A stretch of 64,000 nt of DNA from an uncultured Brachyspira sp. (GCF_944393015.1 NZ_CALXYQ010000010.1:1-64000); one strand, 5' to 3'; shown: positions 37,772-56,426, counted from the first letter of the stretch. Numbers and translations are program-made. Notes: generated by a model not told the origin, from the sequence alone.

Positions 37772-38413
37772 ATGTTTACTGGTATAGTTGAAGAAATAGG
37801 AACTGTTAAATCTGTACAAAGCAAAGTTATAACAATAGAAGCTAGCAAAATATTCGATGATTTGCATTTGGGTGATAGCGTTGCTGTTAATGGTACTTGT
37901 TTAACTGTATCTAGCTTTGATAATAAAATATTTAATGCAGATGTTACTCAAGAAACTTTAAACCGTACTAATTTAGGAAGTTTAAAAAATGGAAGTAAAG
38001 TTAATCTTGAGCGTGCTATGACTTTAAGCGGAAGATTCGGCGGTCATATAGTAAGCGGACATATTGACGGAGTGGGAAGCATTAAGTCTATGAAAAAAGA
38101 TGACAATGCTATAATACTCACTATTGAAGTGCCTAAACACTTAATGAAATATATAGTAGAAAAAGGTTCTGTTGCTGTTGACGGCATAAGTTTGACAGTG
38201 GCAAGTTTAACTGATAATACTTTTTCTATAGCAGTTATTCCTCATACATTGAAGGAAACTGTACTTTATTATAAAAAAGAAGGTGATAAGGTTAATATTG
38301 AAAATGATGTTATAGGCAAATATGTTGAAAGGCTTTTAACATTTAAAGAAGATAATGATGATAGTAAAAAATCCAATATAACAATGGACTTTTTACTTAA
38401 AAATGGTTTTTAA
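37772..38413 (+). CDS. ribE: Riboflavin synthase, alpha subunit
   Basis: The enzyme disproportionates two molecules of 6,7-dimethyl-8-ribityllumazine to riboflavin. The 213-residue protein has two lumazine-binding repeats, starting MFTGIVEEIGTVKSV and, in the second half, HIVSGHIDGVGSIKSM. Also seen are SVAVNGTCLTVSSF and VAVDGISLTVASL, one per repeat, and the segment NLERAMTLSGRFGGH between them. It is the second gene of the rib operon. Confidence 0.95.
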   Translation: MFTGIVEEIGTVKSVQSKVITIEASKIFDDLHLGDSVAVNGTCLTVSSFDNKIFNADVTQETLNRTNLGSLKNGSKVNLERAMTLSGRFGGHIVSGHIDGVGSIKSMKKDDNAIILTIEVPKHLMKYIVEKGSVAVDGISLTVASLTDNTFSIAVIPHTLKETVLYYKKEGDKVNIENDVIGKYVERLLTFKEDNDDSKKSNITMDFLLKNGF

Positions 38414-38495
38414 TAATTATGCACTTTTTACAGCTTTTTACAGCTAATAAATATTAGGAAAAAGTTGAATAAAAAATAAAAATGGAGCATTAAAA

Positions 38496-39695
38496 ATGGA
38501 AAATGTTTACAGCACTATTGATGAAGCTTTAGAGGATTTAAGAAACGGAAAAATTATAGTTGTTTCTGATGATGAAGATAGAGAAAATGAAGGCGATTTA
38601 ATCTGTGCGGCAGAATTTGCTACTACAGAAAATATCAACTTTATGGCTACTTATGCTAAGGGTTTGATATGTATGCCTATGAGTAAAGAGATAACAAATA
38701 AATTAAATTTAAATCAAATGGTTACAAAAAATACTGATAATCATGAAACAGCTTTTACAGTATCTATTGACCATGTTGAAACTACAACAGGAATATCTGC
38801 AGTTGAAAGATCTATAACAGCTTTAAAAGTTATTGATGAGAATGCTAAACCAGAAGATTTCAGACGTCCTGGTCATATGTTCCCATTACTTGCAAAAGAA
38901 GGCGGTGTATTGGTTAGAATGGGACATACTGAAGCTACTGTTGATTTGATGAGATTAGCAGGTTTAAAAGAATGCGGTTTATGCTGTGAGATTATGAGAG
39001 ATGACGGCGATATGATGAGAAGAGATGATTTGATTGATTTCGCTAAAAAACATAATCTTAAAATGATAACTGTTTCTGATTTGATTGATTATAGAAAAAA
39101 GAATGAAGATTTAATGGAGCTTTATGCTAAGGCTAAAATGCCTACTAAATACGGAGAGTTTGAAATACTTACTTTCGTAAATAAAATCACAAAAGAACAT
39201 CATGTAGTTTTAACTATGGGAGATATTTCAAGCGGAGAAGATGTACTTTGCAGAGTTCATTCTGAATGTTTGACAGGCGATGCATTAGGCTCTAAAAGAT
39301 GCGATTGCGGAGAGCAGTATGATTATGCTATGAGAAAAATTGCTTCTGAAGGCAGGGGCATAATGGTATATATGCGTCAGGAAGGCAGAGGAATAGGACT
39401 TGTTAATAAATTAAGAGCTTATGAGCTTCAAGACAGCGGACTTGATACAGTGGATGCTAATATAGCTTTGGGTTTTAGAGATGATATGCGTGAATATTAT
39501 GAGGCTTATCAAATGCTTAAAAATTTGGGAATTAAGAGCATAAAAATAATGACTAATAACCCAGATAAAATAAAGTATTTGAATAATTACGGACTTGAAA
39601 TAAAAGACAGAGTGCCTATACAAATAGAGGCTTCAGAGTATGATGCATTTTATCTAAAGACTAAAAAAGAGCGTATGGGACACATACTAGATTAA
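38496..39695 (+). CDS. ribBA: Bifunctional 3,4-dihydroxy-2-butanone-4-phosphate synthase / GTP cyclohydrolase II
   Basis: The 399-residue protein supplies both precursors of lumazine. The N-terminal RibB domain (1-200) has [20 protein letters not shown] and [20 protein letters not shown]. The C-terminal RibA domain (205-399) has the zinc cysteines in [20 protein letters not shown], then [20 protein letters not shown] and [15 protein letters not shown]. Both active sites appear complete. It is the third gene of the rib set; the next 250 bp contains hairpin repeats. Confidence 0.96.
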
Positions 39696-39711
39696 GAATT
39701 TAAAATAAAAA

Positions 39712-39945
39712 ACTTGTGAGTGTATTAACGAGCAAATTTTTTATATAATGAAAAAGTGAGCCGAAGCCAGCCCCACAGGGCACAGACGTGTGAGTGAGTA
39801 AACTCACTAGCTTATTTAAGGCAGTACCTTGCTTCGCAATGCGGACTTCGTCGCGAGCATAGCAACAGAATAAAAAATTACGAGCCTCTAGCAACTGACA
39901 AAGGAAGTTGCTAGAGCTTATTGGCGAGTAATTTTTTATATATAT
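39712..39945. repeat. GAGCC hairpin repeats after ribBA
   Basis: Two palindromic units lie here. The second is clear: AAAAAATTACGAGCCTCTAG, CAACT, spacer, AGTTGCTAGAGC, then GCGAGTAATTTTTT. The first (about 39712-39860) has CTTGTGAGTG, GAGCCGAAGCCAGCC and TCGCGAGCATAGC. They belong to the family at 40870, 41872 and 56590. The last unit ends just before the ribosome site of the next gene. Confidence 0.7.
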
Positions 39946-39962
39946 TAACAGGAGTTATTACA

Positions 39963-40832
39963 ATGAAAAAAATTATTTTATTTCTTTTAAGCATTAATTT
40001 ATTATGGGCATTTCCACCTGATGCAGCGTACTTCAATGAACTTTTAAGTGATAATGGTAAAATGACAAAAAATACAATGCAAGCTTATGATGTAAACGAT
40101 TATGGTATGGTTTATTTTGATGGAGAGATTACATTAACAGGAGTTCTTGAAAGATCTGATAATGATGATATGGGAGATAATTATACTGCTTTGAGATTTT
40201 ATCCTGATAATAATGTAGATCTTCCTTTTTTATATGCTTCATTTGAAATGGGTTTGAAAAATCAAGTTGCTTCTAAACATGGTGATTCTTGGGATTTTAG
40301 CGGCGTTGAATTTGACAGATTGGATTTCGGTGTTTTATTAAAAAATATTGAAGTAAAATTACCAGAACCTTTGAATAAAAGATTTTTAGGCGTTGCTGCT
40401 GTAAGAGCTGAAGTTACAATTAAAAATTATCGTTTTTATGAAGAAGGTGATGCAGGAAGAGAGGCTTACGGTGATATTGTAGGTTTTAAGGCTTTAGGTG
40501 ATGTAGAAACAAAGTATTTTAGTAAAAATAATTATAATTCAGGAAATGTTTCTTACAACGAACTTCAATATAATTCTAAAGATGATTATGTGAATATAAG
40601 AGATAAAGCAAATGGAAAAATAATAGGAAAGATTTTGAAAAGAGATATGATTTATAATGGGGGAGTTTTATTATCTATCAATGGAGCAGGTATTGATTAT
40701 GAGAATTATAGAGATATCGAAACAAAGTGGCTTGAAGTATTTTATCTTCCTCCAGAGGCTAAAGACGGAAAAGATGCAATTCATGGCTTTGTGCATGGTT
40801 CACAGATAAAACTTGAAAACGGAGGCTATTAA
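39963..40832 (+). CDS. Hypothetical exported protein with an SH3-like segment
   Basis: From the ATG at 39963 (GGAG at a good distance; a 14-codon upstream extension has none) the protein is 289 residues with a signal peptide MKKIILFLLSINLLWAFPPD. It contains a C-terminal segment, DDYVNIRDKANGKIIGKI followed by a W-rich strand (ETKWLEVFYLPPE), that resembles a bacterial SH3 (SH3b) domain. The middle part is beta-rich and unassigned. It lies between ribBA and an Rpn nuclease gene and has no evident link to riboflavin synthesis. Confidence 0.7.
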   Translation: MKKIILFLLSINLLWAFPPDAAYFNELLSDNGKMTKNTMQAYDVNDYGMVYFDGEITLTGVLERSDNDDMGDNYTALRFYPDNNVDLPFLYASFEMGLKNQVASKHGDSWDFSGVEFDRLDFGVLLKNIEVKLPEPLNKRFLGVAAVRAEVTIKNYRFYEEGDAGREAYGDIVGFKALGDVETKYFSKNNYNSGNVSYNELQYNSKDDYVNIRDKANGKIIGKILKRDMIYNGGVLLSINGAGIDYENYRDIETKWLEVFYLPPEAKDGKDAIHGFVHGSQIKLENGGY

Positions 40833-40869
40833 AATAGCATAGCAATAATAAAAAATTATAAGCTTTTGA

Positions 40870-40950
40870 AGACTATATAAAAAAGCGAGCCGAAGCAGCC
40901 AGTAACTTTAGTTGCTGGCTTATATTAGCGTAGGCGAGCATAACAATAAT
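40870..40950. repeat. GAGCC hairpin repeat
   Basis: AGCGAGCCGAAGCAGCCAG, TAACTTTAGTTGCTGGCTTA and GCGTAGGCGAGCATAAC form a hairpin with flanks like the family members at 39712-39945. It fills most of the gap before the Rpn-like gene. Confidence 0.6.
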
Positions 40951-40994
40951 AATAATTTTGACATTTATATTAATTTTATTATAATGTTTGTATT

Positions 40995-41843
40995 ATGGAT
41001 AATGTAAAATATTTTAATACATTGAATGATTATTTTGTAAGATATCTTTTATCTGATATAGGAAGTGAAGCAATATTGTTGGATTTTATTAATTCAATAA
41101 TGCTTGACTCCAATATGAAGACATTTAGAAGTGTTGAAATACTAACTCCATTTAATTATAAAGAAAATTATGAAGATAAAGAAACAATTACAGATGTAAA
41201 ATGTATAACTCAAAATGGTTCAGTTGTTATAATAGAGATTCAGCTTCAAGGAAATTCAAGGTTTCCAGAGAGAATACTTTATTATTGGGCTTCTAATTAC
41301 AGCAAGCTTTTAAAGCAGGGTGAAAAATACGATGCACTAACTCCTGTAATTAGTATTAATCTTCTTAATTTTAATTTAGATGATTCAGAAAATATTCATT
41401 CCTGCTATATGATTTATGATACAGGTAATCAAAGATTATTAACAGACCATTTACAAATACACATAATTGAAGTAAAAAAATTTAAATACAATTTATTAAA
41501 ACCTGATTTAAATTGCTGGCTTAAATTTTTTACTATAAAGGAAGGTGATAATAAGGAGGTTATAATGTCAGAATTAGTAAAAGAAAAGCCTATAATGGAA
41601 GAAGTACAAAGAAGATATAATAACTTCATTAAAGATAGATTGATGATGAATGAATATGATAAAAGACAAGCATATTTATATGGTAATCAAATAATGCTTG
41701 AAGAAGAGCGAAGACTAGGAATTGAAGAAGGTAAGAAAGAACAGCAAATATCTATAGCTAGAAACTTTAAAAAAGCTGGCATAGATATAAAAATAATTAG
41801 TGAAAATACAGGTTTGAGTATAGAAGAAATAGAAAACTTGTGA
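40995..41843 (+). CDS. Rpn-family recombination-promoting nuclease / putative transposase (PD-(D/E)XK)
   Basis: The 282-residue protein opens with DYFVRYLLSDIGSEAILLDF, the usual Rpn/PDDEXK_2 beginning. Catalytic residues fit the family: D67 in ETITDVKC and E81-I-Q83 in SVVIIEIQLQGNSRFPER. A C-terminal charged helical region (KEEQ..ISIARNFKKAGIDIK, with ISENTGLSIEEIENL) is typical too. Rpn proteins cut DNA and promote recombination and occur in many copies in some genomes. There is no clear ribosome site before the ATG. The gene sits between hairpin repeats, separating ribH from the other rib genes. Confidence 0.85.
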   Translation: MDNVKYFNTLNDYFVRYLLSDIGSEAILLDFINSIMLDSNMKTFRSVEILTPFNYKENYEDKETITDVKCITQNGSVVIIEIQLQGNSRFPERILYYWASNYSKLLKQGEKYDALTPVISINLLNFNLDDSENIHSCYMIYDTGNQRLLTDHLQIHIIEVKKFKYNLLKPDLNCWLKFFTIKEGDNKEVIMSELVKEKPIMEEVQRRYNNFIKDRLMMNEYDKRQAYLYGNQIMLEEERRLGIEEGKKEQQISIARNFKKAGIDIKIISENTGLSIEEIENL

Positions 41844-41871
41844 GTGTATGACATTTACAAAATGTCAGGGT

Positions 41872-42070
41872 TCTAGCAAATTTAAAATATATAAAGCTAG
41901 ATAAATTGTGAGCCTCTGGTAACTGACGAAGGAAGTTGCCAGAGCCTAGATAGCGAGCAATTTTCTAGCAAATTTAAAATATATAAAGCTAGATAAATTG
42001 CGAGCCTCTGGTAACTGACGAAGGAAGTTGCCAGAGCCTAGATAGCGAGCAATTTTCTAGCAAATTTAAA
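41872..42070. repeat. Tandem 92-bp repeat of the GAGCC hairpin family
   Basis: A 92-bp unit beginning TCTAGCAAATTTAAAATATA occurs at 41872-41963 and 41964-42055, and a third partial unit begins at 42056. The full units differ at one base (TG or CG before AGCCTCTGG). Inside each, GAGCCTCTGGTAACT pairs with AGTTGCCAGAGCC, and the unit ends GCGAGCAATTTT. It ends just before the ribH ribosome site. It is too short and regular in a single palindrome to be a CRISPR array. Confidence 0.9.
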
Positions 42071-42084
42071 AAAGGATAGTTAAT

Positions 42085-42555
42085 ATGAAAACTTTTGAAG
42101 GAAAACTCGTTAGTGAAAAACCAATTAAAATCGGTATAGTGTGTGCTAGATTCAATGAATTCATTGTTTCTAAACTTTTGGGCGGTGCTTTAGATGCTTT
42201 ATCTCGTCATAACATAAAAGACGATGATATTACTGTAGCTTGGGTACCTGGTGCTTTTGAGATACCTCTAATCGCTTCTAAAATGGCTAAATCTAAAAAG
42301 TATGATGCTGTTGTTTGTTTGGGTGCTGTTATAAGAGGTTCTACTACTCATTATGATTATGTTTGTGCTGAAGTATCAAAAGGTATTGCCAATGTTTCTC
42401 TTAATTCTGATATACCTGTAATGTTCGGCGTACTTACTACTGAAAACATTGAACAGGCTATTGAAAGAGCAGGAACTAAAGCTGGAAACAAGGGATTTGA
42501 TTCTGCTATGGCTGCTATTGAAATGGTTAATTTAATCAGAGAGATAGAAAAGTAA
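42085..42555 (+). CDS. ribH: 6,7-dimethyl-8-ribityllumazine synthase
   Basis: RibH condenses the pyrimidine with dihydroxybutanone phosphate to lumazine, the substrate of RibE. The 156-residue protein has the usual N-terminal strand ([20 protein letters not shown]), [38 protein letters not shown] (with the phosphate-binding loop) and [27 protein letters not shown] precedes the ATG. Although it is a rib gene, it is separated from ribBA by about 2.4 kb with two unrelated genes and three hairpin-repeat loci. Confidence 0.96.
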
Positions 42556-45164: not shown

Positions 45165-48014
45165 TTATTTTTGTAAAGTATTTAATTTCCAATTATTTTT
45201 ATCAAATATATTTCCCTTAACAGTATAATATTTAGTAAAATTAAATCTATTTTCTAATTGTCTATTAGGCTGCCATTCATTTAATATTATGAGTTTTAAT
45301 TCTCCATTCTTATAATTATTTGTAATTATACTTTGTGTAAACGGATTTATCTGCTTAGTGAGATGTTTTGTAGATAAATAAGGAAGATCTGCAACAGTCA
45401 TAAAATTAGATGAAATAGTAAAATCATTTGTAGAGTAAAAATCTTTGACCATTAATAATGCATTATATATAGCCATAAATTCTATACCATTATTTTTATA
45501 AAAATCTGTTTCAATATTTAGGGCATGATCTGAAATTATAATAATTTTTGTATTATCATAAACATTATTATATTTTAAAAAATATATTAATTCAGCAATA
45601 TTTTTCATTGATGCTGCATTAGCATAATAGCTTCTTGTTAAAAATTCGTTTTTAAATTTCTTTATATCTATATTTGGTATTTGATATTTCCATATAGAAG
45701 GAAGTAAATTAGTATTAATATAATCAGGTTCATGAGTTATATTATTATGAATAAAATTAAAATAATTACCATTTTCAGATATTGATGTTATATGTCTTAA
45801 CGAATTTAAAATACTAAATTCTTTTAAAGAATTATTGATAGTTACTGCATTCTCACTTCCATATATATACCAATCTGCACCATTATAAAGAGTTTTTCTT
45901 AGGAAACTTGGAATAATTCTAAAAATTGAAAATCTAAAAGATCTTTGAATATTTAAATCATCAATACCTGAATCTTCATTATATAATTTTTTATCAAGTA
46001 TATTCTTTATCTCTTCTGTTTCATTAGCATAATCATTAAATAAATTACTAATTGCGAATTTAATAAAATTATCATTCTCAGCATAAGCATTCATATTAGA
46101 ATACTTTGAAAATATAGAAGTATCATAACTAAAATTTAAATTTGCAAATGTAGCATTAAAAATATTTGCTTTATAACCATTATCAGTAAATATTTTAGGC
46201 ATTACCAATAAAGATTCATTGTATTTATCTTTTAAATTATATTTTCCTTCTGTTGTAATCTCATAAGGTAAATATTCATATCCTCCCATTAGGCTAGGAA
46301 TAGAACCTACAGTATTTTTTGAATATGAAAGCACATTAGTATATAATATAAATCCGTTAAAATCATTTTTCAATTTATTATTATCATTAAAATATTCTAA
46401 AACATAATGTGATGAGGCTCTATCTAATAATATTATAAATACATTAGTACCTGTTTTAGACAAGTTAAAAATATTACTGTAATTATCTTCTGATAAGTAT
46501 CTTTCTGAATCATTTTGTATATTTGATAATATTTTTTGATCCTTATTAATCTTTACTATATCGTAAACAGATATGGTAAATAATACTAATGATATTATCA
46601 TATATATATTAATAATAATATTTGATTTTTCTTTCTTTAATAAAATGTAAATAATTCCTATAAATATAGATACGAATAAAATATTTAATAATATTTGCAC
46701 AATGCTTGAATTTAAAAGTTCTGAATTTTCAAATATAAAATTACTAGATATATTTCCATAATTTCCAACTATTATAAATGTATCAACAAAAAATATTACA
46801 GATATATATACTATAAACAATGATAAAGTATTTTTTACCTTATCAGAAAATAAAATATAAATAAATAAAGCATAAACAAAGAATGCCCCTATATATTTAG
46901 AAATATTATTTAATATTAATGTAAATGGAGCATTAAATTCCTGACCTGAAGAAGCTATTAATGTGGAAGGAATAAAAAGTCCGGCAAGCAATGTTATGGA
47001 AATAGAAGCTGATATTAATAGATGAAAATTATTGTTTAATTTTATATTAAATAATTTATATAAATATTTTTTGTAAATTATAATTGCAAATAATATAAAC
47101 CATATACTAAAAACATCTTTATATGTTTTTACATCTATTCTAAATATTCTTAAATATTGTTTTTCTATAGAAATTGATAATACAGTTTCCCTTAAAAAAT
47201 AAAGAACTGTATATACAAACATAAAAACTGTAAAAATACTAAATATTATAAATACAATTCTTTTTATTAATACCATAATACTTTTATTTTCTATAAAACT
47301 ATTCCATTTATTTTTTAAAAAACTGTAATTTTCCAAAACTATATTTTTGACTAATGAAAAAGTACAATTTACTGTCCAATAAAATAAAAGTCCTGCAGGA
47401 GAGTTATATAAAAGCACCAAAAAAATTAAATTTGTAACGTATAAGGGAAGCTGCTCTTTTAAAGTGAGTTTTTTTGAATATACTAAAGAAGCCAAAAAAC
47501 TTACTGCTGTCATAATAAAAGGAAGTACATTAATGCTTATATTTCCTATTTTTAACATCGCATCAGGTTTGGCCAAATTGGTTATATATCCAAATTGGGC
47601 AAATTCTAAGCCATCAAGATTATTCATAAAATGATAAGCAGCTATAAAAAATGGTATCTGTATAAGAAGCCCTAGAGTTCCTCTAAAAGCATAAATAGTT
47701 TTGTATCTATTTATCCTTTGACAAGTCCTTATAAGTAAATACCTTTGATCACCTTTAAATACTGCTTTTATATTATCAATCATAGGTTTCATTTTATTTT
47801 GTATATCTCTTTCTTTTTGCTGCCATCTCTCTGCTATATTGTATAATGGTAAAGAAATAAAATTTACAACCAAGCTTATAAAAAATATGCTTACTATATA
47901 AGAACTTTTTGTATATACTTTGAAAAAATAAAAAGATGTTTCTAAAATAAATTCTATTGGATATATAAATATATTATATAAAAATGATGATAGTCCCATA
48001 AAAGTAAAATCCAT
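45165..48014 (-). CDS. YidC/Oxa1-like membrane insertase domain fused to a sulfatase-like (LTA-synthase-type) domain
   Basis: This 949-residue membrane protein has two recognisable parts. Residues 1-245 look like the YidC/Oxa1 core: a first helix ending IYPIEFILE, a core helix FISLVVNFISLPLYNI, a charged hairpin (QQKERDIQNKMKPMIDNIKA), then LLIQIPFFIAAYHFM and LLYNSPAGLLFYWTVNCTFS. The groove arginine of YidC appears to be Asn51. Residues 250-490 form about seven more helices. Residues 522 to about 860 are a sulfatase or phosphoethanolamine-transferase-like domain: NVFIILLDRASSH (metal Asp531), NTVGSIPSLMGG (likely nucleophile Thr568) and KIIIISDHALNIE. The ATG lacks a strong ribosome site. 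The combination could anchor and modify a surface glycan or lipid, but that is inference. Confidence 0.8.
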   Translation of the reverse strand: MDFTFMGLSSFLYNIFIYPIEFILETSFYFFKVYTKSSYIVSIFFISLVVNFISLPLYNIAERWQQKERDIQNKMKPMIDNIKAVFKGDQRYLLIRTCQRINRYKTIYAFRGTLGLLIQIPFFIAAYHFMNNLDGLEFAQFGYITNLAKPDAMLKIGNISINVLPFIMTAVSFLASLVYSKKLTLKEQLPLYVTNLIFLVLLYNSPAGLLFYWTVNCTFSLVKNIVLENYSFLKNKWNSFIENKSIMVLIKRIVFIIFSIFTVFMFVYTVLYFLRETVLSISIEKQYLRIFRIDVKTYKDVFSIWFILFAIIIYKKYLYKLFNIKLNNNFHLLISASISITLLAGLFIPSTLIASSGQEFNAPFTLILNNISKYIGAFFVYALFIYILFSDKVKNTLSLFIVYISVIFFVDTFIIVGNYGNISSNFIFENSELLNSSIVQILLNILFVSIFIGIIYILLKKEKSNIIINIYMIISLVLFTISVYDIVKINKDQKILSNIQNDSERYLSEDNYSNIFNLSKTGTNVFIILLDRASSHYVLEYFNDNNKLKNDFNGFILYTNVLSYSKNTVGSIPSLMGGYEYLPYEITTEGKYNLKDKYNESLLVMPKIFTDNGYKANIFNATFANLNFSYDTSIFSKYSNMNAYAENDNFIKFAISNLFNDYANETEEIKNILDKKLYNEDSGIDDLNIQRSFRFSIFRIIPSFLRKTLYNGADWYIYGSENAVTINNSLKEFSILNSLRHITSISENGNYFNFIHNNITHEPDYINTNLLPSIWKYQIPNIDIKKFKNEFLTRSYYANAASMKNIAELIYFLKYNNVYDNTKIIIISDHALNIETDFYKNNGIEFMAIYNALLMVKDFYSTNDFTISSNFMTVADLPYLSTKHLTKQINPFTQSIITNNYKNGELKLIILNEWQPNRQLENRFNFTKYYTVKGNIFDKNNWKLNTLQK

Positions 48015-48103
48015 ATTAATTAGTAATAATTATTATAATTTTTATATTATACCATATTATATTAATTAATTCAAATATCAAAAAATCATAGTAAAATTAA
48101 AAG

Positions 48104-52729: not shown

Positions 52730-54064
52730 TTAAAATTTATTTAAATCTTTTATTAATTCTTCTTCAATACCTTTCATAACTTCAGCAAACTTTTTTATGT
52801 TGCTGAAATTTTGATTAGGAATTTTCAAAGCATATTTATGTATCTCGCAATTTGCATTATTATATTTACTATTTAGATTTCCTATATGAGTATTTTTATA
52901 ATTATCAATTTCTATTGGATAAATGAAACCTGCCTTTTTAGCATTAAGCGTATAAGCATAAGAAACTATTTGATGTTTATCGTTTCTGTCTATACTTTCA
53001 TTATTATCATAGTTTAATTTTTTATATTTGGCATCAAGAACTATATTATTTTTATCTGATAATTTATAGAAGTCTGGATAAACTTTCCAAGCATTATTAA
53101 GAAGATTTATACCTTTACTGGAATTTCTATTTTCAGCATGAATAAAATTTTCTTTAGCTAAGAAAGTATTTAAATATTCTTCAAAAAGCCAAGCTCCGTC
53201 AAATAATAAACCATATACAGTATTATCATTGCTGCCGTATTTTAATTTTTCATGCCTTAATATTTGAATGCATATTTTTCTTAAAGGCTCATATTCATAA
53301 TAGTATGGGTGTGATAATTTTTTTAAGTTTTTATTTATAATGCTTTCTCTTTTATTTCTCTCATAACTAGGAGTGGAATAAAATATTTGCTGAACATAAT
53401 TTTTTATTTCGCTGTCATAACTTAAAAGATATTTGTTTTTTGTGTTTATATATTCTATAGTGTGCCTTATTAACTGAGTGATATTATTGTCATAGCTGTA
53501 TTCTCTAGTATTGTACGAAATTTTACCATTGAAAGGAATATTGTTTTTGATGTATCTATTAATATCAATAGTGCCTTTAACATTAGAATCATTATGCTTT
53601 ATTAATTTGTATTGCTTAAAAAGCCCCTGCCTCAATGCTCTCTTAAAAAAACTAATAAACATATAAATTAAAAAATCAAACGAATCATCATAATCCTTAC
53701 TATGCTCTAAATTAACAACATTAAGAGAAAGCACTTTCATAAGCATATAATGCAAAAAATAATCTTCATTATCATTTACAGCGAACCTTGAAGAGATTTT
53801 TATTTGCGTATTATTGTAGCTTATAAATCCCATTATATTGTTAGTACGTATTTTATCATCAAGTAAATTGAATATTGTACTTTTTTTATTTATATCTTTA
53901 GTCTCATCAAAACTATTTGGAAATATTAAAATATTATCTGAAATATTTTCAATAGAATGGCTAGCTATATATTGAATATTGCTTTTATCTATATCGTTTG
54001 ATAATTGTGATATATCATAATCATTATTATCTTTTAATTTAATAATTTTATTGTTTGTATTCAT
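52730..54064 (-). CDS. mcrC: McrC-family component of a type IV (McrBC-like) restriction system
   Basis: The 444-residue protein is the expected nuclease partner of the AAA+ protein encoded just upstream. The N-terminal half is the McrC beta-rich, helical region (SSRFAVNDNEDYFLHYMLMK, then FISFFKRALRQGLFKQYKLI and NVKGTIDINRYIKNNIPFNG). The C-terminal PD-(D/E)XK domain has VYPDFYKL (D331), IVLDAKYK (D344, K346) and HQIVSYAYTLNAKKAGFIYP (Q365). No clear ribosome site precedes the ATG. It is separated from the ATPase gene by a short GC-rich repeat. Confidence 0.87.
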   Translation of the reverse strand: MNTNNKIIKLKDNNDYDISQLSNDIDKSNIQYIASHSIENISDNILIFPNSFDETKDINKKSTIFNLLDDKIRTNNIMGFISYNNTQIKISSRFAVNDNEDYFLHYMLMKVLSLNVVNLEHSKDYDDSFDFLIYMFISFFKRALRQGLFKQYKLIKHNDSNVKGTIDINRYIKNNIPFNGKISYNTREYSYDNNITQLIRHTIEYINTKNKYLLSYDSEIKNYVQQIFYSTPSYERNKRESIINKNLKKLSHPYYYEYEPLRKICIQILRHEKLKYGSNDNTVYGLLFDGAWLFEEYLNTFLAKENFIHAENRNSSKGINLLNNAWKVYPDFYKLSDKNNIVLDAKYKKLNYDNNESIDRNDKHQIVSYAYTLNAKKAGFIYPIEIDNYKNTHIGNLNSKYNNANCEIHKYALKIPNQNFSNIKKFAEVMKGIEEELIKDLNKF

Positions 54065-54067
54065 TTA

Positions 54068-54140
54068 TTATTGCAGGGCTTTGCCCCGCACCCCAGTTCT
54101 TTTATTGGTATAAAAGAACCAAAAAAACTGCATTTTTGGC
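54068..54140. repeat. GC-rich dispersed fragment between mcrB and mcrC
   Basis: TTGCAGGGCTTTGCCCCGCA, CCCCAGTTCTTTTATTGG and TATAAAAGAACCAAAAAAAC form two hairpins. Similar text (GAACCCCTAATTCTTTTGCC) occurs inside the element at 31909-32283, so this is probably a fragment of that family placed inside the restriction operon. Confidence 0.55.
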
Positions 54141-54161
54141 TCTTACTTATTTTAAAATTTA

Positions 54162-56426
54162 TCAATTATCTATATTATTATCATCTATATTAGTAGTATC
54201 TTGTTCTATACAATAAGCATTTTCTAACTTTTTAAGTTTATCATTTATATCAGGCATACCTCTCAAGTACTCAAACAAAAGCCCTTTCAAATGATTCTCC
54301 CATAGGCTTTTAAATGCTGTTTTTTTATTATCACTTGAACTCTTATAATAATTTTTTAACTTCAAGAAATAAGAAGCCCCTATATGATACGATGAATTAA
54401 AGCCTTCTATTTCACTAATTGCCTTATTTAAATTATCCATTCTTTCTTTAGCTTCATCTATAAATGATTGTTTATCTTTTTCTGTAATTTCTTTATTATC
54501 ATCAAACATACTATCAAGCATATCTTGCGTATCTTCCGCTTTAATCTCTTTCCAAGCGAATCTCCTACGCATAGCAAAGTCCATACTTTCAACGCTTCTA
54601 TCAATATCATTCATTGTTCCTATTATATAAAGATTCTCTGGTATATAAAAATATTTTTCTGATTCCTCATCTATCAAATTAGAGTATTGAGTAAGCACTT
54701 TTCCTTTAATGCCTCTATATCCAGGGTCTATAGCAAAGAATAACTCACCGAAAATTTTTGAAACCTCTCCCCTATTAATCTCATCTATAATAAATACGCA
54801 ATTTTTCTTTTTAGTATTTACTTCTTTTTTTATTTGAGAATTATATTTTTCATAGAATGCTTTTAAAAAACCATATTTATATGTATGTAAACTATCAAAA
54901 TGTTTTAATTTTTTTACATCATTATAATCCAAGCTGTATATATCTTTAGAAGTTAAATCTCTATACATCTCCACACAAGTATCTATTGGTATAGATACTT
55001 CATGTTTACCTGTATCTGTATTTAATTTATAATGTATTGAATTATCACTGTTTATTTCTATAAATTTTATTGAAGCTGCTTTTCTGCTAATACCATCAAT
55101 TTCAAATTTTTCTTCATTAGCTATTATATTAGAAACATCATCTTTAAATTTTATTAAATATTCTTTTATTATTATTGACTCAATCTCAATTAAATTCTTA
55201 AGTGCTTTTTTACAAAACTCTTTAAAAACCCCATCCTTTCTTTCAAATCCAATATTTCCATTACCATCTTTAATAGGTCTTAATCCCTCAACAAAATCTG
55301 TATAATCATAAGATGGATGAAACTGCACAAACTGGCATTGATTTTTGAAATCCTCATTTTCTTCCAAATCTTCTGTATACTCTTTATTATCATCATTAAA
55401 AATAATTTTTGCTGCAATCTGTTTAGCTAAATAGGTTTTTCCTGTTCCAGGTGCCCCAGTTAGTATAAGATTATAATTTTCTTTTAAAAGGTTAATATAT
55501 TTTTCCATAGCGTTATCCATTTTAATATTTAAAATATTCAAAAATTCTTTCATAATTTTATTATCATATTCATTGTTTTCATTTAATTCATATATTGCCG
55601 GCGGTGATTGAATACTTTCATTTGTACAATTTTCATTCCAAGATATTTTTTCTTTTATATGAGTAAAATATTTTAATTTTCTTGCCTGTATATAACGGTC
55701 TCTATAATCATAATGATAAGAATCAGAATCAACAATACCAACAAAATAATCTTTCCTTTCCCAATTAACCCTTAAACTTATTATTATAATATCGCCTAAT
55801 TTTACATCATTTTCAAATTTCTTTCCTAATGGCTTATCCTCTTTCCAACCCATTAAAGCAACTTTATCTTTTTCCATCATATCAATAAAATTTTGAATGG
55901 GATGCTCTTTTTTATCAGTTAAAACATTAGGACTTATTACCCAATATTTCATTGTATAATTACTAAAATTAAAATTATCATCTTTTGTAATAGCTCTAGC
56001 AATATTCAAAGCTTCATTTTCTGATATTTCAAAAACTCTTCCTTCTTCCTCTTTATCTCTTATTCCTTCGAAATTAGTTATAATATTTGAAATATTTATT
56101 AATTGAAAGTTTTCTTTTTTGTGCTGTATGTAATTATTAAATGATTCATGACTATTTATATTTTCTAAATTTATAAATTTACCAAAAGAATAATATCTAT
56201 AAATATAAATTCCACCAATATCCAATTTCACTCTTAAAAATACTATATCGTCTTTTTGTATAGAGTTTAAATTTTCAATATCTCTTTCATAACGAGAATA
56301 ATTTTCTTTTGTTTTTCTATTTCTAAAAAATATGTATTTTTTTTCTTCTGTACAAGTTTTAACAAAATTTTTAATATTATGTTCTTGATCTTTCCAAAGT
56401 AATATGCTTATAACAAAAAATTTCAT
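54162..56426 (-). CDS. mcrB: McrB-like AAA+ GTPase/ATPase with two N-terminal PUA/EVE-like domains
   Basis: The 754-residue protein is the motor of an McrBC-type system that cuts modified foreign DNA. The AAA+ domain has Walker A GAPGTGKT (324-331), FHPSYDYTDFVEGLRP (369-384), Walker B FIIDEINRGEVSKIFGEL (545-562), the McrB signature TMNDIDRSVE (604-613) and FAMRRRF (617-623). Two related N-terminal units begin MKFFVISILLWKDQEHNIKN (1) and MKYWVISPNVLTDKKEHPIQ (159), each followed by strands such as GDIIIISLRV. They look like tandem PUA/EVE-type domains, a fold that reads modified bases. This replaces the usual McrB DNA-binding domain. No strong ribosome site precedes the ATG. Confidence 0.86.
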   Translation of the reverse strand: MKFFVISILLWKDQEHNIKNFVKTCTEEKKYIFFRNRKTKENYSRYERDIENLNSIQKDDIVFLRVKLDIGGIYIYRYYSFGKFINLENINSHESFNNYIQHKKENFQLINISNIITNFEGIRDKEEEGRVFEISENEALNIARAITKDDNFNFSNYTMKYWVISPNVLTDKKEHPIQNFIDMMEKDKVALMGWKEDKPLGKKFENDVKLGDIIIISLRVNWERKDYFVGIVDSDSYHYDYRDRYIQARKLKYFTHIKEKISWNENCTNESIQSPPAIYELNENNEYDNKIMKEFLNILNIKMDNAMEKYINLLKENYNLILTGAPGTGKTYLAKQIAAKIIFNDDNKEYTEDLEENEDFKNQCQFVQFHPSYDYTDFVEGLRPIKDGNGNIGFERKDGVFKEFCKKALKNLIEIESIIIKEYLIKFKDDVSNIIANEEKFEIDGISRKAASIKFIEINSDNSIHYKLNTDTGKHEVSIPIDTCVEMYRDLTSKDIYSLDYNDVKKLKHFDSLHTYKYGFLKAFYEKYNSQIKKEVNTKKKNCVFIIDEINRGEVSKIFGELFFAIDPGYRGIKGKVLTQYSNLIDEESEKYFYIPENLYIIGTMNDIDRSVESMDFAMRRRFAWKEIKAEDTQDMLDSMFDDNKEITEKDKQSFIDEAKERMDNLNKAISEIEGFNSSYHIGASYFLKLKNYYKSSSDNKKTAFKSLWENHLKGLLFEYLRGMPDINDKLKKLENAYCIEQDTTNIDDNNIDN

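Follow-up and report, generated by a model that had tools for sequence, protein, structure and literature searches.

The closest described systems are the insertases of the YidC/Oxa1/Alb3 family, the alkaline-phosphatase (AP) superfamily enzymes LtaS/LtaP and EptA/MCR-1, the TagB/TagF enzymes (PF04464), the Lic and Pnt pathways, and the MBOAT-SGNH systems. Not every YidC requires the cation of its groove, and coat proteins of the inovirus coat protein B kind are YidC clients. PF04464 enzymes extend poly(glycerophosphate) chains; LicD is the usual last enzyme of Lic-type pathways; and 2-aminoethylphosphonate (AEP) is the phosphonate analogue of phosphoethanolamine. In general, domains found fused in one organism but encoded separately in another are usually functional collaborators. 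Purified E. coli YidC scrambles lipids (PMC10491306), MCR-1 binds PE and uses it as donor (PMC12658134), and D-Ala rides on a Tyr of DltX as acetyl does on a Tyr of PatA (PMC12148441). PEP mutase, phosphonopyruvate decarboxylase (Ppd), AEP transaminase and PntC together constitute the CMP-AEP pathway, the steps past CMP-AEP having been called unknown (PMC6697681).

Here, we analyse a gene of an uncultured Brachyspira sp. that joins a YidC-like domain to an AP domain and lies in a stretch of 64,000 nucleotides (NZ_CALXYQ010000010.1:1-64000), hereafter the window. An earlier reading of this DNA (the original prediction) had claimed a single 949-codon frame, without stating its strand. The frame exists, on the minus strand, where it runs from ATG to stop with no internal stop codon; the plus strand across the same positions holds many stop codons. 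Measured against a 74%-identical relative (L016), dN/dS over the whole gene is 0.275, and the fusion gene is therefore under purifying selection. Promoter-like sites of the type found upstream of the gene (Table 1) are not clearly more frequent than expected by chance in the surrounding AT-rich region.

Table 1. Features of the fusion gene and its upstream region, in positions of the window
Feature	Position	Strand	Basis or remark
Whole fusion gene (type I: YidC-AP)	45165..48014	minus	949 aa; coordinates include the stop codon
Promoter-like site, extended -10, upstream of the fusion gene	48046..48074	minus	not clearly above chance in this AT-rich region
YidC/Oxa1-like membrane domain, aa 8-242	47289..47993	minus	PF02096, TIGR03592, model helices, Foldseek to 3wo6 and 6al2
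Asn51, YidC groove-cation position	47862..47864	minus	N/S/T/Q/F in all 30 aligned fusions
Seven further TM helices, aa 243-506	46497..47288	minus	model helices and hydropathy peaks
AP-superfamily (LtaS/EptA/MCR-like) catalytic domain, aa 509-949	45168..46490	minus	PF00884, Foldseek
Asp531, predicted metal ligand (IILLD), invariant	46422..46424	minus	alignment
Thr568, predicted nucleophile, invariant	46311..46313	minus	alignment
His761, predicted active-site His (THEPD), invariant	45732..45734	minus	alignment
Asp829-His830, predicted metal ligands (SDH), invariant	45525..45530	minus	alignment

The N-terminal part has the YidC-type core that had been claimed for it. In the window copy, PF02096 (60KD_IMP) matches aa 39-228 with an E value of 4.6e-21, far over the Pfam cut-off, and TIGR03592 (yidC_oxa1_cterm) matches aa 38-227 with an E value of 4.8e-23 and 82.2 bits, slightly under its own cut-off of 84.3. 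An AlphaFold2 model of the protein, built on 30 aligned homologues (mean pLDDT 86.5, pTM 0.80), matches YidC structures in its N-terminal part (Foldseek; 3wo6, target TM 0.75, rmsd 3.5 Å), and a profile search of PDB sequences agrees with Foldseek on both halves. Derivation of the N-terminus from another membrane family, which the original prediction had named as one finding that would count against it, was ruled out, as YidC models alone match and YidC is best by both profile and fold.

Asn51 had been proposed to replace the groove arginine of YidC, and it does align with the groove cation, which is Lys in the canonical YidC of the same genome; across the 30 aligned fusions the position is N in 21, S in four, T in two, Q in two and F in one, and R or K in none. 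Since the cation is lost in all 30 and some YidCs do without it, an insertase function becomes less likely, if still conceivable. Also missing is the basic cytosolic C-terminal tail, which in the canonical copy ends KKKKRKKR; the fusion continues instead into further TM helices, about seven as foreseen and seven by model helices and hydropathy peaks, which would put the catalytic domain outside.

That domain had been described as LTA-synthase- or sulfatase-like, a description that holds. The C-terminal part of the model matches MCR-1 (9nww, the top match), LtaP (4uop), LtaS (4uor), a further LtaS/LtaP entry (2w5r) and EptA, as well as sulfatases (Foldseek). PF00884 (Sulfatase) covers aa 524-836 with an E value of 0.0017, under the cut-off in the window copy, and is over the cut-off in homologous fusions (E 1.2e-8 and 2.8e-8). 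The five predicted catalytic residues (D531, T568, H761, D829 and H830) show no variation in the 30 fusions and are kept in the AP domains of the reshuffled forms described below.

Six full-length fusions, one C-terminal fragment and one canonical YidC are encoded in this genome. The original prediction had suggested a search for the same fusion in other Brachyspira and gut bacteria. Beyond the other Brachyspira, full-length homologues, frequently in tandem copies and about 30% identical outside that genus, were found in Treponema, Breznakiella, Lachnospiraceae, Ruminococcaceae and one Fusobacterium MAG. Across 296 Spirochaetota genomes, most matches are to canonical YidC only (E about 1e-20 to 1e-39, over the first ~230 positions), and true fusions are patchy, occurring in 15 of 26 Brachyspira genomes as read from the match table; of 60 Lachnospiraceae genomes drawn evenly, six have the fusion. 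The 181-aa fragment in this genome (L044; G000:C35, 3795-4340) belongs to a further fusion and has LicC-kinase and EutH genes as neighbours; L027 and L067 carry an intact fusion at the syntenic site. Frames resembling a Microviridae-type prophage were noticed by eye on one spirochaete contig (L061, 3503-7905).

Conservation is unevenly spread over the protein. Pairwise identity averages 47.7% over the YidC part, 23.6% over the middle helices and 35.2% over the AP part; the corresponding dN/dS values, taken against the nearest relative, are 0.144, 0.306 and 0.318. Conservation is thus highest in the YidC part, despite its lost groove cation. Between tandem copies (L024, L035), the YidC parts are 71-79% identical, the AP parts 41-58% and the middle helices about 31%. 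The YidC part being well kept and the AP part diverged among paralogues, the former appears, from these comparisons, to meet something common to all paralogues and the latter something variable.

A second protein, of 400-440 aa, recurrently adjoins the fusions. It consists of a short tail or signal-like segment, the sequence YIDPGTG, one TM helix, basic residues and then a PF04464 domain (CDP-glycerol-type phosphotransferase), which gave four matches over the cut-off (E 7e-8, 2e-11, 3.5e-11 and 5.9e-9) and has the family motifs RPHPQ and SDFSG. This partner co-occurs with the fusion near-obligately. It is present in 13 of 15 fusion-positive Brachyspira genomes (the two misses being 85-86% complete) vs none of 11 fusion-negative ones; in other Spirochaetota, in genomes chosen for contrast, the counts are 38 of 38 and 0 of 22. 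Among the genomes of the homologue loci, a set that partly overlaps the Brachyspira genomes, 17 of 18 have it, and in the evenly drawn Lachnospiraceae (n = 60) it is found in exactly the six genomes having the fusion (Fisher p 2e-8). All these counts are uncorrected for kinship between genomes. The Y(I/L)DP motif sits at the predicted outer end of the TM helix; the segment forms a short, N-out helix that carries an acidic tail and, on its cytosolic flank, is rich in K/R. Its Y, D and P are invariant across aligned type I partners and small YIDP proteins, the 34 listed YIDP proteins having been selected by the Y(I/L)DP motif itself. In one locus (L082, 6535-8700), the partner carries an extra C-terminal ~300 aa that include a further TM helix, and in two others (L022, 8681-9995; L023, 4603 onward), its gene is in two frames, as from a frameshift or draft-assembly error.

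This genome encodes two partners (G000:C17, 155-1441, minus; G000:C28, 25938-27218, plus), one of which has just one gene between it and a fusion paralogue, within a cluster of sugar genes. The copy in the window is an orphan, with no partner or donor gene near it in the 64 kb, and would have to draw on a partner encoded elsewhere in the genome. Other genes of the window include a McrBC-type restriction pair (52730-56426, minus), made up of a McrC-like protein (PF10117, E 3.9e-54) and a 754-aa AAA protein resembling McrB. By eye, we also noted riboflavin synthesis genes (37772-42555, plus; synthase alpha, RibBA-like and lumazine synthase) with two unrelated frames in between, and a 282-aa protein that looks like PD-(D/E)XK nuclease family transposases (40995-41843, plus).

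The same modules are reshuffled in some Lachnospiraceae. Four loci (L076, L078, L079 and L080) encode a fusion of YidC to PF04464, here called type II, with domains assigned from Pfam (60KD_IMP, E 4e-28 to 1e-31; PF04464, E 9.5e-9 to 7e-12). In the first three, a small separate YIDP protein adjoins this fusion; in the region next to it in L080, no clear YIDP frame was resolved. AP-domain proteins without YidC are found in L076 and on the L079/L087 contig, and L086 encodes a YIDP helix joined to an AP protein, directly adjoining a YidC-PF04464 fusion. Type II is rare, class-wide sampling having yielded one further genome among 148. Fusion swaps thus link all four modules (YidC, AP, YIDP and PF04464), which therefore probably form one machine. 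A tree of the YidC domains sets type I apart from canonical YidC (support 100) and places type II with clostridial canonical YidC rather than with type I (support 99); from this placement, the YidC fold seems to have been recruited twice, independently, a tentative reading given the long branches.

Many of the loci also contain genes for activated head groups. At least one is present in 20 of 45 loci, vs none in the window's 56 ORFs (a single, weak control), and 25 of the 45 have no donor gene nearby. The genes concerned are those for PEP mutase, Ppd, AEP transaminase and a PntC/LicC-like cytidylyltransferase, or LicC-choline/ethanolamine kinase cassettes with EutH or EamA, so that the neighbours make CDP-choline/ethanolamine or CMP-aminoethylphosphonate. 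At one syntenic Brachyspira site, where L044 and L067 agree at 375 of the 383 residues of a flanking gene, the cassette differs from genome to genome: LicC-kinase with an EamA transporter in L027, phosphonate genes in L067, both kinds in L068, and, in this genome (L044), LicC-kinase with EutH next to the fusion fragment. LicD was found in none of 26 Brachyspira genomes, in searches whose controls were positive. A query for PEP mutase from another Brachyspira, run without a positive control, had no match in this genome, and AEP as a universal donor is, for this genome, unsupported; with no detectable PEP mutase, its own donor is more likely to be CDP-ethanolamine or CDP-choline.

Our preferred reading, to which we assign a probability of roughly 0.55, is of a two-protein machine by which phospho- or phosphono-alcohol groups are attached to surface glycans or lipids, with the fusion as its extracytoplasmic half, the candidate groups being, by organism, phosphoethanolamine, phosphocholine, 2-aminoethylphosphonate and phosphoglycerol. 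The positive-inside rule and the helix count would place PF04464 in the cytosol and both the YIDP motif and the AP domain outside. The cytosolic PF04464 enzyme would draw a head group from a CDP or CMP donor; the group would cross the membrane inside an assembly of the YidC-like domain and the YIDP helix; and Thr568 of the AP domain would form a phospho-Thr intermediate and donate the group to an acceptor outside the cytoplasm. The role of the YidC part would be that of a scaffold or passage rather than of a general insertase, and one partner would serve several fusions, whose diversifying AP halves probably suit different acceptors. Crossing might proceed by scrambling of a lipid-linked head group through the hydrophilic groove or by covalent hand-over, with the group carried on the YIDP Tyr. 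The former is nearer to known chemistry, and the latter would account for the invariant Tyr and for the alternation between microprotein and fused forms.

The invariant catalytic set, the fold relatives, the co-occurrence of the partner, the reshuffling, the donor linkage, the lack of LicD in Brachyspira, the uneven divergence of tandem copies and the lipid scrambling by purified YidC all point towards such a relay. Counting against it are the variation of the donor by locus, the 25 loci with no donor gene nearby, the orphan state of the window copy and the sub-cut-off Pfam score of its AP domain; the lost type I groove cation is by itself no argument for passage of anionic head groups. The guess in the original prediction that the protein modifies surface glycans or lipids has gained strength from the donor-synthesis genes nearby and from the conserved partner, a CDP-alcohol phosphotransferase by its domain, its activity being a predicted one. 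A bolder form of the proposal, which by analogy we entertain as speculative and rather unlikely, is that an Oxa1-superfamily inserter has been turned into a membrane passage, in which a group loaded by the cytosolic CDP/CMP-dependent transferase onto the Y(I/L)DP Tyr, or onto a lipid, in the YidC-like groove would swing or scramble to the outer face, reach Thr568 and pass thence to glycans, YidC having been recruited at least twice. On that view, the system would be a phosphoform version of the acyl shuttle DltB/DltX/DltD.

The donor could also be an ordinary phospholipid (PE or PG), as in EptA/LtaS, with the partner acting in a parallel step. The strongest rival builds on this: the fusion would be an LtaS/EptA-type enzyme with a phospholipid donor, its YidC part an anchor and a platform for lipid or acceptor, and the PF04464 partner would build a cytosolic teichoic-acid-like acceptor polymer. 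The closest fold relatives, MCR-1 and LtaS, do use PE or PG, chain extension is what PF04464 enzymes perform, and glycosyltransferases are common at the loci. This rival, however, leaves unexplained why YidC and YIDP are swapped between AP and PF04464 proteins, why a second YidC lineage was apparently recruited, and why lic/pnt donor cassettes occur without LicD in Brachyspira, and we consider it unlikely but worth keeping in view.

We think it improbable that the YidC part is a dedicated insertase or chaperone for the partner's N-out YIDP helix (or for glycan enzymes), with the AP domain merely tethered for co-assembly. The YIDP segment does have the classic shape of a YidC client, constraint on the protein is strongest in its YidC domain, and one small YIDP protein (L076, 7696-7962) weakly resembles inovirus coat protein B (E 0.0025, under the cut-off). 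The groove cation is nevertheless missing, the basic tail has been replaced by seven TM helices, a separate canonical YidC is kept in the genome, and a one-time inserter would need no fusion to each of six enzyme paralogues.

The PF00884 family name and the sulfatases among the profile and fold matches would suit a surface sulfatase or phosphodiesterase that strips groups from host or self glycans and has its membrane anchor incidentally, but the partner and donor genes are biosynthetic, and in all 30 aligned fusions the formylglycine motif C/S-x-P-x-R is missing, the site reading NTVGSIPSL with an invariant Thr as predicted nucleophile; a classical sulfatase is thus ruled out, and the wider idea is highly improbable. 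A chimeric misassembly or chance read-through, for which the unusual architecture is the sole point in favour, has a negligible probability and is ruled out by many independent full-length homologues, the order being the same and the length similar, within one reading frame, across 30 aligned copies drawn from about 20 genomes, with more found by profile and a syntenic, 74%-identical copy in L016. Where the original prediction had allowed that separate halves might have been misassembled into one frame, dozens of unrelated genomes encode the fusion at full length.

In the open-licence literature, we found no published description of a YidC-sulfatase or YidC-glycerophosphotransferase fusion, in agreement with the original prediction, which knew of no established family with this architecture, and nothing relevant on a Treponema LTA-like glycolipid. 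What is new is the assembly; all domains except the YIDP helix belong to known superfamilies. The fusion and its partner are a concrete candidate for the steps after CMP-AEP in surface phosphonate decoration and, in Brachyspira, a candidate route by which cytosolic CDP-activated head groups might reach surface acceptors without LicD. If the relay is real, the Oxa1/YidC fold would be used beyond protein insertion, in line with lipid-scrambling insertases (PMC10491306).

Set against known systems, the fusion has the five-TM core fold and motifs of YidC/Oxa1/Alb3 proteins (PF02096, TIGR03592; B. halodurans YidC, 3wo6) but lacks their groove cation and basic tail, is joined to seven TM helices and a catalytic domain, and is multicopy beside a canonical YidC. 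With LtaS/LtaP, it has in common an AP-superfamily domain with a Thr nucleophile, outside the membrane as predicted for the fusion; LtaS, however, has a 5-TM membrane part where the fusion has YidC plus seven TM helices, and Glu as metal ligand where the fusion has Asp531; the fusion also has its near-obligate PF04464 partner. The AP catalytic domain is likewise common to the phosphoethanolamine transferases EptA/MCR-1, which makes a pEtN-like group plausible for the fusion, but MCR-1 takes its group from PE (PMC12658134), whereas the fusion is associated with CDP/CMP donor cassettes and a cytosolic partner. TagB/TagF, which are CDP-glycerol:polyglycerophosphate transferases, have the same PF04464 catalytic domain as the partner, to which the latter adds an N-terminal YIDPGTG TM anchor or, in type II, a YidC domain. 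The MBOAT-SGNH systems (DltB/DltD/DltX, PatA/PatB; PMC12148441) for acyl transfer follow the logic proposed here, of activated cytosolic donor, membrane passage and extracytoplasmic transferase, and they too include an invariant Tyr on a TM microprotein, which in other loci is fused to a larger subunit; no folds are common to the two (YidC, PF04464 and AP here), the group here would be a phosphoform rather than an acyl, and the Tyr shuttle is hypothetical here. Finally, the cytidylyltransferases, kinase, EamA, PEP mutase, Ppd and AEP transaminase of the Lic (LicA/B/C/D) and Pnt pathways (PMC6697681) adjoin the fusion and its partner, and in Brachyspira, where LicD is missing, the fusion and partner stand in its place.
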